In this document: in pieces, positions 14,593 to 20,906 of the stretch
How the letters are laid out: each line of letters starts with the position of its first letter
Position numbering within the stretch: the stretch's first letter is position 1
Assembly: GCF_002850745.1 (NCBI RefSeq)
Contig: NZ_KZ559471.1
Span: forward strand, 349,091 to 413,090
Reading direction: 5' to 3'
Length of the DNA: 64,000 nt
DNA from: Nonomuraea indica
GTDB taxonomy: Bacteria > Actinomycetota > Actinomycetes > Streptosporangiales > Streptosporangiaceae
Position numbers and translations under genes: made by a program
The notes under the pieces: generated by a model
Databases searched by the model: none
What the model was told of the DNA's origin: nothing
The model's input: the letters and a program-made list of their open reading frames with translations, nothing else

Positions 14593-14807
14593 GCTCTGTG
14601 GCGCGCCGCGGCCCCATGGGCCGCACGGCGCTCGGTCACACTCCGTGACGTCGTGGAGTGCTGTGCCGGATGGTGTGGAGCCGGCGGGGCGGCCAGGGCT
14701 CCTGCGTGCAGGGTGACCCTCCGCACCGGCCGTCCCGCCGGCTCCGTGAGACCGCCGTGGGCACGGTGAGCCGAGGTGGCTGCGCTCCACCCGGTTCACC
14801 GTCTACG

Positions 14808-15092
14808 TCACTTCGCCACGGCGGCGAGCACCCGGGCGACCTTGGTCGCCGCGCCCGCCGGGTCGTCGGCGGCGTGCATCGGTTCGCCCCACGACCAGCA
14901 GTAATGCCATTCGGCCAGGTCGGCGACCCGGGACGGCCGGCAGGTGACGTTCTCCGTCAGGCTGGTGGCCTCCGGGTTGATCACCCGGACGAACAGCCGC
15001 CCGGTCTGGGTGCGGACCACTCGTGCGAGCATCCCACGAGCGTCGAGCTCCGACACCAGACGCTCCAGGTGCTCGAAGTTGTCGTCCCCCAC
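14808..15092 (-). CDS. Small conserved-looking protein of unknown function
   Basis: The protein has 94 residues from the GTG at 15092. I do not recognise it. The first half predicts helix then sheet (NFEHLERLVSELDARGMLARVVRTQTGRLFVRVINP) and the second has an aromatic strand (AEWHYCWSWGEPM) followed by a C-terminal helix (TKVARVLAAVAK). A strong Shine-Dalgarno GGGAGGGA lies 6 nt before the GTG, which decides this start over a TTG at 15140. It is divergent from the XRE/TPR regulator, which suggests it is a target or partner of that regulator. Small proteins of this aromatic-strand type often occur near XRE genes in actinomycetes (general observation, not checked here). Confidence 0.65.
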   Translation of the reverse strand: MGDDNFEHLERLVSELDARGMLARVVRTQTGRLFVRVINPEATSLTENVTCRPSRVADLAEWHYCWSWGEPMHAADDPAGAATKVARVLAAVAK

Positions 15093-15312
15093 CTTGGGTC
15101 CCTCCCTCGCATCGTTGCTGGTGGGCCAAAGATGACTCAAGTCGGCCGGTTACGCAACGAGGCCCATGTGCTTACGGGGAGTCGCTTCTCCCTCGTGGGT
15201 ATTAAGAAACAGTCCGCGGGAGGACGATCCTCAACCGTAAGCTTCAAGGCGGCGTTTTCTTACTGTCCTCAATGGTCCATAGTGTTTGCTAGGCGGAGTG
15301 CGACATGGAGGC

Positions 15313-15340
15313 TACGATCCGTAATCAACCGCGGATCGTA
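15313..15340. promoter_or_regulatory. Inverted repeat before the XRE/TPR gene
   Basis: TACGATCCG (15313-15321) and CGGATCGTA (15332-15340) are perfect 9-bp inverted arms with a 10-bp spacer. TACGAT inside the left arm could serve as a -10 box. It lies 26 nt before the regulator's start, a natural autoregulatory position. The rest of the divergent gap (15093-15312) is AT-richer and probably holds both promoters. Confidence 0.6.
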
Positions 15341-15365
15341 CGGGACATGTGGGAGAGGGGCCGGG

Positions 15366-16922
15366 ATGTCCGGCAGACAGCACCGGGAGACGGAGATGGC
15401 ACGGCGGATCCGAGCCAAGGGGCTCGCCGTCGGCCAGACCGCTGCCCAGATCGCTGAAGAGATTCACGAAGCCTGCGGGCCACACTTCGGCACCACGAAG
15501 ATCAAGAGCCATCGCCTGTCGCACGGCATCGCGCTGGCCGACGTCATCGAGCAGGTCCGCGCCCTGTTCGACCGGGACGCCAAACCGGCGCCCGGGATCG
15601 GCGAGACCCTGCTGTCGGCCTACGAGAGCGGGCTCAAGCGACCCGGACCCGAATACCTCCATTACCTGTGCACGGTCTACCGGGTCGAGCCGGTCTCGCT
15701 CGGCTACGACGGGCCGTGCATCTGCGGTCACGGCCACCGCATGACCGGCTCTTCCGGCGACGAGCCCGGCGAGCCCGCAGGCGCGGCAGCCGACCGCGCC
15801 CGCCAGGCCGTCCAGCCGCCGCCGCGTGAGGAGCCGCGGCCGGACGACCAGGAGGACGAGAACATCCTCCGCCGCACGCTGCTCCAGATGCTCAACGGCA
15901 ACTCCGCCAAGAAGCTCGACGGGCCGGTGCTCGGCGCCATCGAAGGGATCAGGCGGCGCATGGACGAGACGCTGGCCTCGTCCACCGTCTCCTACGCGAT
16001 GCTCGACCAGTGGGAGGAGGCCACCGTCGCCTTCGGCCGGCAGTACACGACCACGGCGCCCCTCCGCCTGCTCTGCGACGTCGTGCTGGAGCTCAGCGCC
16101 GTGCGCGCCGCCATGTCGCACCGCCAGCCGATCGACCTGCAGGACCGGCTCTGCCGGATGGCCGCCCAGCTCGCCGGGCTGAGCGGCATGATCCTGATCA
16201 ACCTCGGCGACCACCGTCTGGCCCGGTCGTTCTTCCGCACCGGCCGGGTGGCGGCCGACGAGACAGGCGACCGGGCCCTGCGCGCGTGGGTGATCGCCCG
16301 CGAGTCGCTGGTGCCGCTCTACTACGGCGACGCCCGCGAGGCGCTCAACCTCGCCAAGAAGAGCCGCGACCTCGCCGGGCAGACACCCTGCGCCGCCCAG
16401 GCGATGGCGCCGGTCGTCGAGGCCCGCGCCCTGGCCATGCTGTCGAGCTCCGAGAACAAGAAAGAAGTCGTCGACCAGGCCAAGAAGGCGCTGGCCCGGG
16501 CCCGCACCGCCTTCTCGCACATCAGGGGCGACGAGCGCGAGGACATGGCCTTCGGCTACACCGAGCGGCAGCTCTACTTCTACCAGGGCGACGTGCTGAC
16601 CAAGCTCGGCCAGACGGTCGAGGCCGAGGTCGTGCTGGACCAGGCGCTCGACAAGTACCAGGACCACATCCTCGACCAGACCCTGATCAGGCTCGACCTG
16701 GCCCAGTGCCGACTCATCGAGGGTGAGCTGACCGAGGCGCTCGACGTCGCGACCGAGGCGCTGCGGCTCCTCGGCCCCGACTACCTGACCGACTTCATCA
16801 TCCGTCCCGCCGTCGCCCTGGAGCAGGCGATCGCCAAGCGGGAGCCCGACCATCCGGGCCTCGCGGCCTACCGGGCGCTGCTGAGGCAGCCGATCACGAC
16901 CGAAGGGATTGGCGGTGCATGA
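15366..16922 (+). CDS. XRE-type helix-turn-helix regulator with TPR-like C-terminal domain
   Basis: The protein has 518 residues. Residues about 10-120 hold a helix-turn-helix region (QTAAQIAEEIHEACGPHFGTTKIKSHRLSHGIALADVIEQVRALF and ETLLSAYESGLKRPGPEYLHYLCTVYRV), resembling the Cro/CI-type domains of actinomycete regulators. A short CICGHGH Cys/His stretch follows, then a disordered Pro/Glu linker, then about 350 residues of paired helices of TPR type (ARSFFRTGRVAADETGDRALRAWVIARESL, YYGDAREALNLAKKSRDLA). Such proteins sense a ligand or peptide through the repeats. The ATG at 15366 has GGGAGAGGGG upstream; a much longer open frame upstream is ignored. The stop overlaps the next start (ATGA), so the GNAT gene is translationally coupled. 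Confidence 0.78.
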   Translation: MSGRQHRETEMARRIRAKGLAVGQTAAQIAEEIHEACGPHFGTTKIKSHRLSHGIALADVIEQVRALFDRDAKPAPGIGETLLSAYESGLKRPGPEYLHYLCTVYRVEPVSLGYDGPCICGHGHRMTGSSGDEPGEPAGAAADRARQAVQPPPREEPRPDDQEDENILRRTLLQMLNGNSAKKLDGPVLGAIEGIRRRMDETLASSTVSYAMLDQWEEATVAFGRQYTTTAPLRLLCDVVLELSAVRAAMSHRQPIDLQDRLCRMAAQLAGLSGMILINLGDHRLARSFFRTGRVAADETGDRALRAWVIARESLVPLYYGDAREALNLAKKSRDLAGQTPCAAQAMAPVVEARALAMLSSSENKKEVVDQAKKALARARTAFSHIRGDEREDMAFGYTERQLYFYQGDVLTKLGQTVEAEVVLDQALDKYQDHILDQTLIRLDLAQCRLIEGELTEALDVATEALRLLGPDYLTDFIIRPAVALEQAIAKREPDHPGLAAYRALLRQPITTEGIGGA

Positions 16923-17401
16923 AGCTCCGGATCCGGCGTTACCGTTGGTCTGACCTCGACACGATCCTGGCGCTGCACCAGATCTGCCTCGCGGGGGTCG
17001 GTCTGTTCCCCGGCGACGGGGTCTACTACGACGACGACTTCCCGCGCATCCAGGAGATCTACCTCGCATGCGGCGGCGACTTCCTCGTCGGCGAACTCGA
17101 CGGCCGCGTGATCGCGATGGGCGGGCTCAAACCCGTCGACTCCGACACGGTCGAGGTGTGCCGGCTGCGCGTCCACCCCGACCACCAGCGCCGGGGTCAC
17201 GGCGCCACGATGCTCGCCGCCCTGGAGGCGCGGGCGGCGCGGCTCGGGTTCCGCAGCCTCCGCGGTGACACCACGCTGCGGCAGGAGGCCGCCCTGGCGC
17301 TGTACGAGCGGCACCGGTGGCGGGAGGTCTCCCGGGAGCAGGTCGGCGACCTCACCGTGATCTACATGGAGAAGCGACTGGTGCCCGCGGGCACCGCCTG
17401 A
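16919..17401 (+). CDS. GNAT-family N-acetyltransferase
   Basis: The protein has 160 residues of the Gcn5-related acetyltransferase fold. The acetyl-CoA-binding loop is VHPDHQRRGHGATMLAALEARAARLG (Q/RxxGxG/A form), preceded by strand DTVEVCRLRV and followed by LRGDTTLRQEAALALYERHRWREV. It should acetylate an amine of a small molecule or protein; the substrate is unknown. The start overlaps the XRE/TPR stop by 4 bases (ATGA), so both are made from one message and the regulator may control it directly. Confidence 0.88.
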   Translation: MKLRIRRYRWSDLDTILALHQICLAGVGLFPGDGVYYDDDFPRIQEIYLACGGDFLVGELDGRVIAMGGLKPVDSDTVEVCRLRVHPDHQRRGHGATMLAALEARAARLGFRSLRGDTTLRQEAALALYERHRWREVSREQVGDLTVIYMEKRLVPAGTA

Positions 17402-18981: not shown

Positions 18982-19010
18982 TGGACTAACCGTGTTCGGA
19001 GGGGGACACC

Positions 19011-19085
19011 ATGAAGCGCATCGTCGTGCGTAAACCCGGCACCGCCCAGCTCACCGGGACGGCCAGCGTCATCCACAAGGGGTGA
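19011..19085 (+). CDS. 24-residue peptide coupled to TPR protein
   Basis: A strong Shine-Dalgarno (GGAGGGGG, 18998-19005) lies 5 nt before an ATG that opens a 24-codon reading frame. The peptide begins MKRIVVRKPG, has the middle TAQLTGTAS and ends VIHKG; it is basic, with Thr/Ser but no Cys. Its stop overlaps the next gene's start as GTGA, so the larger gene is translationally coupled. The combination of dedicated promoter, best ribosome-binding site in the neighbourhood and overlap argues for a real gene rather than chance. I do not recognise the peptide. It could be a precursor or signal sensed by the TPR protein, or simply a translational leader. Confidence 0.6.
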   Translation: MKRIVVRKPGTAQLTGTASVIHKG

Positions 19086-20785
19086 GCCGGGGCCGCCGGA
19101 CCCATCTCCGGTTACCGGGCGCTCCGCCCGACCCGGCGGGGGCCGTGCGGCCGCTGATGCCGACGATCGACGGGCACCGACGACCGCACGGCCCGTACAC
19201 CGTGGCCTCCGCCCTGCTGCACCGGATCGTGCCGGAGACATTGGAACGTTCCCCGGAGCTGGTGGCCGCCCACGACATCGAGATCAGGGCGGCCGCGCCC
19301 GGCCTGGCCGACCTGGTGCCGGTCACGCGGGAGACCATCGACGCCCGCCTCACCGACGACGAGCGGATCCTCGTGCCCGCGCCCCGCCGCACGCTGCGGC
19401 TGGCCAACGGCATCACGGAGTTCGTCCGCGAGGCGGTGCCGCACGGCACGACGCTCGTGGTGTGCAACGGCGCCCAGGCAGACCCCACCGACGCCGAACT
19501 GCTCGACGTGATGACGCGCAGGATCGCGCCGGAGGTGCTGGAGATCGTCGTCTACGCGGGCGGCCCCGAGCCGCCCGAGGACCGGCGTGGCCCCGAGGAG
19601 CTGTGGCCGGTCGTGGACCGGTGCCTGCGCGAGGGGTTCCTGCACGCCGTCGCCGAGCTCGGGGCGCGCGGACTGGCCCGCACCGAGCCGGGCGGCGAGC
19701 CGTGGTGGCGGTTCGCCCAGCGCACCGCGACGGCGCTCGGCGGGCTGGGGCGGGTGGACGAGGCTCGCCGGGTGTGGCAGCGGGTGCGCGGGGCGAGCCA
19801 GGACCCGGCCGTCCACGCGGCCTGCGCGTACGGTCTCGCGATGCTCGACGCCCGCCACCAGGACCCCGCCCGGCGCGACCTGGCCGCGGCAAGACAGTGG
19901 ATCAACACCGCCGTCGCCGTCTCGACCCTGCTGCCCGACCCGTACGAGAGGGCCTTCAAGCTCGGCTTCGACCGCAACGGGCTGGCACTGGTCGAGCTGC
20001 GCGAGGGGCGGCCGGAAGCGGCCCTCGCCCTGGTGGACTCGGCCCTCGACCTGGCCCGCGAGCTGGGGGAGCGGCATCCCGTGCACCGGATGGTGCTGCG
20101 CGCCAACCGGGCCCGGCTGCTGGCGGTGCTCGGCCGCGTGAAGGAGGCGCTGGCCGACTACGGGGCGGCCATCGCGCTCGACCCCGGCTTCCCCGACTAC
20201 TACCTCGACCGGGGCAACCTGCTGGCCGGCCTGGGCTGCCAGGACGAGGCGCTGGCCGACTACGAGAGCGCGATGCGGGCCGGCCCTCCGCTGCCCGAGG
20301 CGCACTACAACCGCGCCGAGCTGCGGATCGCCCGAGGCGACCTCGACGGCGCCCTGGCCGACCTCGGACGGGTGATCGACCTCGACCCGTCCTGCCTCGA
20401 CGCCTACATCAACCGGGCGGGGCTGCTGGCCGGGCTGGAGCGTGACGAGGAGGCGTGGCGCGACGTGACGGCCGGGCTCGCGCTGGCGCCGGGCAACCCG
20501 CACCTGCTGGCGGTGCTGGGCCAGCTGGAGACGGCGGCCGGGCGGCTGGCCGAGGCGCGCCGCGCCCTGGACCGGGCCGTCGAGGCGGCCCCGTGGCTGG
20601 CGGCGGCGTGGGGAAACCGGGGGGTGCTGCGGTTCGAGGCGGGCGACCCGGAGGGGGCGGTCGAGGACCTCTCCCAGGCCATCGGCCTCGAACCACAGCC
20701 CGACCTGTACGCCAACCGGGCCGTCGCGTTGCGGGCGCTCGGCCGGGAGGCGGAGGCGGCTGCCGACGAGGAGCGGGCCCGCTGA
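19082..20785 (+). CDS. TPR protein with degenerate STAND-like N-terminal region
   Basis: The protein has 567 residues from the GTG at 19082. Residues about 40-160 resemble the core of a STAND/LuxR-type ATPase: GPYTVASALLHRIVPETL stands where the P-loop region would be, and TTLVVCNGAQADPTDAELLDVM matches the Walker B strand of such ATPases with its key residues altered; no GxxxxGK is present. Residues about 210-560 are at least eight TPR-type units, for example LADYGAAIALDPGFPDYYLDRGNLLAGLG and LADLGRVIDLDPSCLDAYINRAGLL. It has no signal peptide or membrane segment. The start overlaps the 24-residue peptide gene, so the two are made together. It probably binds a peptide or protein through the repeats; its activity is unknown. 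Confidence 0.75.
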   Translation: MSRGRRTHLRLPGAPPDPAGAVRPLMPTIDGHRRPHGPYTVASALLHRIVPETLERSPELVAAHDIEIRAAAPGLADLVPVTRETIDARLTDDERILVPAPRRTLRLANGITEFVREAVPHGTTLVVCNGAQADPTDAELLDVMTRRIAPEVLEIVVYAGGPEPPEDRRGPEELWPVVDRCLREGFLHAVAELGARGLARTEPGGEPWWRFAQRTATALGGLGRVDEARRVWQRVRGASQDPAVHAACAYGLAMLDARHQDPARRDLAAARQWINTAVAVSTLLPDPYERAFKLGFDRNGLALVELREGRPEAALALVDSALDLARELGERHPVHRMVLRANRARLLAVLGRVKEALADYGAAIALDPGFPDYYLDRGNLLAGLGCQDEALADYESAMRAGPPLPEAHYNRAELRIARGDLDGALADLGRVIDLDPSCLDAYINRAGLLAGLERDEEAWRDVTAGLALAPGNPHLLAVLGQLETAAGRLAEARRALDRAVEAAPWLAAAWGNRGVLRFEAGDPEGAVEDLSQAIGLEPQPDLYANRAVALRALGREAEAAADEERAR

Positions 20786-20868
20786 CCACCACCCGGAGAC
20801 GGGAGCGGGCCCGCTGACCGTTCGTAGACGGGGAGCGGGCCCGCTGACCACTACTCGAAGACGGGGAG
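20772..20868. repeat. 30-32 bp tandem repeat across the TPR gene's 3' end
   Basis: The perfect palindrome AGCGGGCCCGCT recurs at 20772-20783, 20804-20815 and 20834-20845, each followed by GACC and then by a GAGACGGG/TAGACGGGG-like stretch. A decayed fourth copy begins near 20864. Each copy carries the gene's final codons and TGA. Confidence 0.8.
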
Positions 20869-20906
20869 CAGCCCGCTGGCGCCCGTCACGTTCGCCGTGC
20901 CGTGGA

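Follow-up and report, generated by a model that had tools for sequence, protein, structure and literature searches.

The window, the 64,000-nucleotide stretch of Nonomuraea indica DNA analysed here, contains a 24-codon frame that runs directly into the gene of a TPR protein (Table 1). The peptide frame starts with the ATG at 19011 and ends with the TGA at 19083-19085, and the GTG of the TPR gene at 19082 overlaps this stop codon as GTGA. Both genes are located downstream of an NsdA-family regulator gene, whose true start probably lies inside the listed frame, and of a GNAT acetyltransferase gene. The region between 18900 and 18990 has an AT content of 56% compared with 28% for the whole window, in agreement with the AT-rich patch that an earlier note on this DNA had described upstream of the peptide. 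A generic sigma-70 scan returned no promoter site, and a terminator scan returned one terminator-like site. A tandem array at 20765-20878 of the window, with approximately 3.6 copies of a 32-base unit, spans the TPR stop codon. The host genome is Nonomuraea-like and has a size of 8.29 Mb.

Table 1. Features at the peptide-TPR locus, with positions in the window and the basis of each assignment.
Feature	Position	Strand	Basis
NsdA-family TPR-like regulator	14658..16922	+	NCBIfam NF053720, 143.8 bits, cut-off 75
GNAT acetyltransferase	16919..17401	+	Pfam 2.2e-16
Promoter-like TTGATA-N15-AATAAA	18953..18979	+	pattern in 67/76 upstream regions
Shine-Dalgarno-like GGAGGGGG of peptide gene	18998..19005	+	read from sequence
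24-residue peptide gene, MKRIVVRKPGTAQLTGTASVIHKG	19011..19085	+	homologues in 79/80 loci, pN/pS
567-aa TPR protein	19082..20785	+	Pfam TPR_1 5.7e-25; AlphaFold; overlap 73/75

Relatives of the locus were collected from named genomes by a search with the N-domain of the TPR protein, and the best 80 of 135 relatives were taken as loci. They belong to genera under Streptosporangiaceae, except for one record called [Actinomadura] parvosata. A homologous peptide is encoded 5´ of the TPR gene in 79 of these 80 loci, which were fetched via the TPR N-domain, and all 79 homologues are exactly 24 residues long. The pN/pS ratio of the peptide gene is 0.182 within 39 Nonomuraea, 0.219 within 36 from genera other than Nonomuraea and 0.255 over all 75 window-type genes. 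Judged from these sequences, the 24-codon frame is a real gene that is conserved across a family of soil bacteria.

Two peptide types were distinguished among the 79 homologues. The window type (n = 75) follows the pattern MK[KR]I...RKPG...L.G..SVIHKG and has a tail that is nearly invariant across the 75 genes; the second type (n = 4) is exemplified by MKKVVVHKPGTV.... Across 21 diverse peptides, Lys2 and His22 do not vary, and Lys8 is present in all 75 window-type peptides. His7 was observed in four of the 75 window-type peptides that lie beside a TPR gene and also in all four second-type peptides. The top 10-residue Kyte-Doolittle mean among the 79 peptides is 1.41, and the median is 0.71.

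The in-frame overlap between the two genes is kept in 73 of the 75 window-type loci, 72 times as GTGA and once as ATGA. The codon of Gly24 is GGG in 73 of the 75 window-type peptides, as demanded by the stop/start overlap, and GGG is used at Gly16 in 38/75 and at Gly10 in 7/75. A His-containing motif (a simple pattern) is found in the first residues read from the overlapping GTG in 64 of 73 loci, and a segment similar to this start also opens TPR proteins of other lineages, which suggests that the overlapping GTG is very likely the true start of the TPR protein. The internal ATG, at residue 26, was ruled out as the start, because four of the 73 overlap loci contain no alternative ATG, GTG or TTG ahead of the N-domain. 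An overlap local to two species was likewise rejected, since it is present in 29 of the 30 window-type loci of the genus; the 31st genus locus checked is the paralogue described below. The 24-codon frame with a GTG overlapping its stop, as described in the earlier note, is confirmed.

The upstream elements are also shared. The TTGATA-N15-AATAAA pattern, which was composed after viewing the upstream alignment, occurs in 67 of 76 regions 5´ of window-type peptides (window included), compared with a mean of 4.9 and a maximum of 11 of 76 in two-base-block shuffles. A Shine-Dalgarno-like 4-mer (any of six, a broad pattern) is located within -18 to -4 in all 76 loci.

The TPR protein comprises an N-terminal region, an N-domain of approximately 140 residues (about 19163-19582) and a TPR superhelix. 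Its AlphaFold model has a mean pLDDT of 92.3 over residues 28-567, and the top matches of the full model in a fold search are TPR and other repeat proteins. In the Pfam search, cut-offs were reached by TPR models only, and no HTH or Rap model matched the window protein. The model of the N-domain, with a pLDDT of 79.9, shows three short strands; one of the conserved elements of the domain, in our own reading, is a Walker-B-like strand with ADxTD after it. The earlier note had described the TPR protein as having a degenerate ATPase core that keeps the shape of a STAND ATPase N-terminus and lacks a P-loop. The missing P-loop was verified, as GxxxxGK[ST] is absent from the window protein and its 79 homologues, and also from 51 tree rows that were trimmed to begin at the N-domain; the STAND fold was not recovered by a Foldseek search with the N-domain, in which the best E value was 0.2 with none below. 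A split P-loop completed by the peptide was discarded, as the glycines, judged by eye, are wrongly spaced and the TPR rows of the trios described below also have no P-loop. Of the other 51 tree rows, N. lactucae L123 is the closest to the window protein, with 85% identity.

Among the neighbours, the NsdA-type gene cluster was called in 72 of the 80 loci and the GNAT cluster in 45, and in 30 a downstream gene was named by eye as prolyl-oligopeptidase-like. Gene calls were made by a home-made GC3 rule that misses genes, and neighbours (smc, ftsY, PurU, SARP, flavoenzymes and others) were named by eye unless a family search was run. Other common neighbours in the inspected clusters include MscS, globin, a sugar hydrolase, PurU and the like. 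The shared neighbour clusters inspected showed neither an evident RiPP-modifying enzyme nor an enzyme of the ligase type.

A second pair is located behind ftsY in the host genome. Its TPR protein is a paralogue that is 55% identical to the window protein and has its own 24-residue peptide, and the peptide and TPR genes are separated by a 75-base gap and do not overlap. Four second-type pairs of the 80 loci adjoin ftsY, without the GNAT cluster; smc-like and ftsY-like genes, named by eye, precede the second pair in L182, L191, L201 and L202.

The peptide and the N-domain occur in nearly the same genomes. Among the matches listed for 200 family genomes at E≤1e-3, the N-domain was found in 95 and the peptide profile in 93; all 93 peptide genomes fall within the 95 N-domain genomes, and none of the 105 others contains the peptide. 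The peptide profile, A3, has 24 positions and was built from 21 peptides of the same genomes searched. The two family genomes with an N-domain and no peptide match are G084 and G165. At E≤0.1, weak peptide matches were listed in 15 more genomes without an N-domain, which are taken as noise. A TPR homologue is present in all 54 genus genomes. Genus and family here follow the labels that the search tool assigns to the genomes. Class-wide, the matches listed place the N-domain in 28 of 394 genomes at E≤0.01, including strong matches outside the family in G446, G544 and G740 (E≤3.5e-21).

Six genomes that share a genus (G190, G239, G172, G205, G057 and G216) keep the peptide, and no N-domain gene was found in the 6 kb fetched. 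These orphan peptides follow the NsdA-type regulator at the same syntenic position, and a GNAT gene was called at three of the six loci; their pN/pS ratio is 0.295 (n = 6), and all six contain His7. All six genomes contain a further N-domain gene elsewhere that has a peptide match of its own beside it, and our guess is that this gene could serve the orphan peptide in trans. The orphan peptides weigh against a purely cis role of the peptide and against the neighbouring gene as its sole source of a partner; together with the TPR homologues that lack a peptide, they also speak against a strict two-part device.

The earlier note had named two observations that would speak against the pairing: TPR genes without an upstream short frame, and short frames without amino-acid conservation. 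The conservation proved strong, and a few TPR homologues without an adjacent peptide were encountered (L157, G103 and distant ones). In L157 (N. maritima), foreign-looking sequence, possibly an inserted element, abuts the expected peptide site (upstream of 927). In G103, the TPR gene of the second group has no adjacent peptide, and at L250:1894-3082 a family peptide is located 43 bases after a different, AfsR/HaaT-like TPR protein of 353 aa, which scores 167.7 bits against the HaaT model with a cut-off of 1125. The TPR homologue of G165 has no recognised peptide, and no peptide was detected by pattern at the distant group-4 homologues (L233-L235, L350-L353). In G026, the peptide match is at the very end of one contig of the C69/C79 pair and the TPR gene is on the other, which is probably an assembly break.

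The same profile also recognises peptides in a longer arrangement. Among the matches listed in 296 class genomes, A3 matched G544 (3.6e-8), G446 (3.5e-5) and G740 (4.5e-5), in each case 1.4-1.6 kb ahead of the N-domain of a TPR gene; matches 1.4-1.7 kb ahead of a TPR-gene N-domain were also observed in the home family. A gene for an HExxH peptidase lies between the peptide and the TPR gene in all 18 loci fetched, which were chosen by peptide-profile match, so that the presence of the peptide is by construction and that of the peptidase is not; the peptidase profile itself came from eight of the 18. The precursors of these trios are 26-33 residues long in the 18 loci. They share the start MKKI.[IV]RK.G.[VI][RK]LT, and their tails and lengths differ among the 16 distinct sequences, all of which contain Cys and 15 of which contain Tyr22. 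Position 22 is thus mostly Tyr in the trio precursors, compared with an invariant His in the window-type peptides.

The trio peptidase is approximately 400 residues long and, judged by eye, contains membrane-like stretches. An HExxH motif and a DGLV further along the chain are invariant in the eight aligned proteins (8/8), as in the HExxH and later DG motif of M50 peptidases. Pfam M50 was weakly matched by four of the eight at E≤10, with a best E value of 4.4e-4, and the L300 protein reached 13 bits against a cut-off of 27.2. A PqqD-like N-terminus was weakly detected in one of four proteins tested (E 0.067), and a PDB search with the peptidase profile returned 0 matches. The 20 trio-type loci mapped (L300, L302-L317, L348, L349 and L357) contain a SARP-like regulator cluster in 11, an old-yellow-enzyme-like flavoenzyme in eight and a flavin-reductase-like gene in three (all named by eye), suggesting that they may be small biosynthetic clusters. 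On contig C1 of G200 (1717036-1717214, in L306), two adjacent trio-type peptide matches precede one TPR gene.

None of the 80 pair loci encodes the trio peptidase in the sequence fetched, which extends up to 8 kb to either side. The peptidase-TPR arrangement occurs in two Nonomuraea, in one of which a precursor was recognised; G084 has a peptidase and a TPR gene and no recognised precursor. Of 53 genus genomes, 11 have no peptidase relative among the matches listed at E≤1e-3. The peptide was seen in seven of these 11 (G010, G024, G026, G030, G037, L006 and L007), suggesting that processing by such an enzyme is unneeded there. Another enzyme may act on the peptide, a candidate being the prolyl-oligopeptidase-like product of the downstream gene in 30 of 80 loci. 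The host genome contains three distant relatives of the trio peptidase. One of them belongs to a RiPP-like locus on contig C23 (L347:4900-7595), next to a ThiF-like protein whose score against the TOMM leader-binding model lies above the cut-off (42.7 bits vs 36.9). A short Lys-rich peptide is encoded at the end of a small ORF in the same interval.

In a quick maximum-likelihood tree of 52 TPR proteins, which has SH-aLRT support only and a root that rests on four distant group-4 rows, both pair groups form one clade (SH-aLRT 100), and this clade is nested inside the peptidase-bearing lineages (SH-aLRT 95). The nesting suggests that the pair probably arose from a trio whose peptidase was lost and whose peptide became fixed. 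The simplest history would be a trio that first shed the peptidase gene and was then duplicated.

With about even confidence, we therefore propose that the pair descends, in reduced form, from a RiPP-like trio and that the peptide is now an uncut, cytosolic partner of the TPR protein with which it is translated in step. The ancestral trio would have comprised a short precursor, followed by a membrane-type HExxH peptidase with a weakly PqqD-like N-terminus and by a TPR protein without a P-loop. The common ancestor of the window-type and ftsY-linked pairs would have lost the peptidase gene and retained the TPR protein, and its peptide would have become fixed at a length of 24 residues, lacking Cys and carrying His22 in place of the prevalent Tyr. 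The peptide and the TPR protein are most likely made in step via termination-reinitiation at the GTGA. From genome association and descent, on which the proposal is built, we infer that the peptide is most likely uncut, resides in the cytosol and is bound by the TPR protein as a small partner, and that its function would be to set what the TPR protein can hold. The earlier note had suggested either a peptide-receptor or a precursor-partner pair by analogy with TPR proteins of the Rap/Rgg/NprR types. Its observation of the pair is confirmed and its interpretation is partly supported: the conserved overlapping pair stands and, given the trios, the precursor-partner version fits better, and nothing found here points to signalling of the Rap/Rgg/NprR kind.

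A further reading, which we hold tentatively, concerns the outcome of the peptidase loss. The precursor may have been domesticated into a fixed, unprocessed 24-residue housekeeping subunit of the TPR protein that was duplicated into two pairs, is inherited vertically within a bacterial family and has outlived its adjacent partner in one genus. Under this domestication, one pair would serve in the NsdA-GNAT neighbourhood and the other behind ftsY.

It appears rather unlikely that the peptide is still a RiPP precursor that is modified in trans by an enzyme from elsewhere, with SSVIHKG as the core and the TPR protein as a leader-binding helper. Descent from precursor trios, the distant peptidase relatives of the host genome (one beside the ThiF-like protein) and the prolyl-oligopeptidase-like gene downstream of many loci are consistent with such a role. 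However, the tail is near-invariant in 75 genes, unlike RiPP cores, Cys and Tyr have gone from the peptide, no RiPP-modifying enzyme was recognised among the inspected shared neighbour clusters, and part of the genus has no listed peptidase relative. By sequence, present-day RiPP status fails on the variable core, which is seen in the 16 distinct trio precursors, and on a recognised modifying or processing enzyme nearby (0/80 for the trio peptidase; not every cluster was identified), whereas the trio relatives look like RiPP precursors.

A carrier function, in which the peptide would be a scaffold for building or holding a small molecule and the GNAT or another conserved neighbour would act on it, is improbable. 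The conserved GNAT gene, the invariant Lys2 and His22, the constant Lys8 and the persistence of the peptide beside the NsdA-type regulator without a TPR gene would suit a carrier; the shared neighbours inspected include no ligase-type enzyme, however, and the four pairs by ftsY lie without the GNAT cluster.

Even less credit is due to a cis-acting leader peptide, that is, a short frame whose translation merely controls translation of the TPR gene by coupling or stalling. The conserved overlap and the promoter-like element and Shine-Dalgarno sequence ahead of the peptide would be expected of such a leader, but the second pair has a 75-base gap in place of the overlap, the related trio peptides are 1.4-1.7 kb from the N-domain, and selection on the peptide persists at loci that have lost the adjacent TPR gene; the orphan peptides of the six genomes led us to reject a leader that acts in cis only.

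Most pheromones vary in sequence between species. A quorum-type signal that leaves the cell, is taken up again and is then recognised by the TPR protein or the upstream NsdA-type regulator would accord with the peptide-TPR architecture and with the conserved NsdA-family regulator close by, but it is the least credible reading, as the peptide sequence hardly varies between species, no strongly hydrophobic stretch is present in the 79 peptides (by Kyte-Doolittle only), the TPR protein matches no DNA-binding or Rap model, and export of the peptide appears unlikely.

If the descent from a trio and the partner role of the peptide are true, a natural-product leader would have become a conserved micropeptide with a cellular role, and a route of micropeptide birth would be traceable in living lineages, from trio to pair to orphan peptide. 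At 24 residues, the peptide is small enough for synthesis and direct binding tests. No description of the pair or the trio was found among the titles and abstracts listed from the open literature searched or in passages of PMC12257519, and six precursor motif strings are absent from the open literature searched. The trio of precursor, HExxH peptidase and TPR protein would be a RiPP-like system with no description in the literature searched.

Compared with known systems, the pair resembles RiPP loci with a TPR protein (HaaT, NF041717), of the FxSxx-COOH type, in that a short precursor-like peptide gene lies beside a TPR protein gene; the trios also share with them a membrane-type HExxH protein. 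The pair differs from these loci in that no RiPP enzyme was seen near it in the fetched stretches and inspected clusters, the peptide tail is fixed, and NF041717 is not among the 20 matches of the window protein at E≤1. The trio peptidase, with HExxH and DGLV in 8/8, is similar to M50 peptidases and to the daptide intramembrane metalloprotease (NF041824), but four trio peptidases do not match NF041824; a distant peptidase relative in the host genome matches it weakly, with 23.5 bits against a cut-off of 300. In RRNPP receptors (Rap, Rgg, NprR), a TPR protein is encoded with a short peptide gene beside it. The window pair shares this arrangement, whereas its TPR protein carries no HTH or Rap effector domain by Pfam models and its peptide contains no strongly hydrophobic stretch. 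Finally, stop-start coupled leader peptides and bacterial uORFs are similar in that the end of a short frame coincides with the start codon of the gene that follows. In contrast to these leaders, the window peptide is conserved in its own sequence and is kept where the downstream gene is gone.
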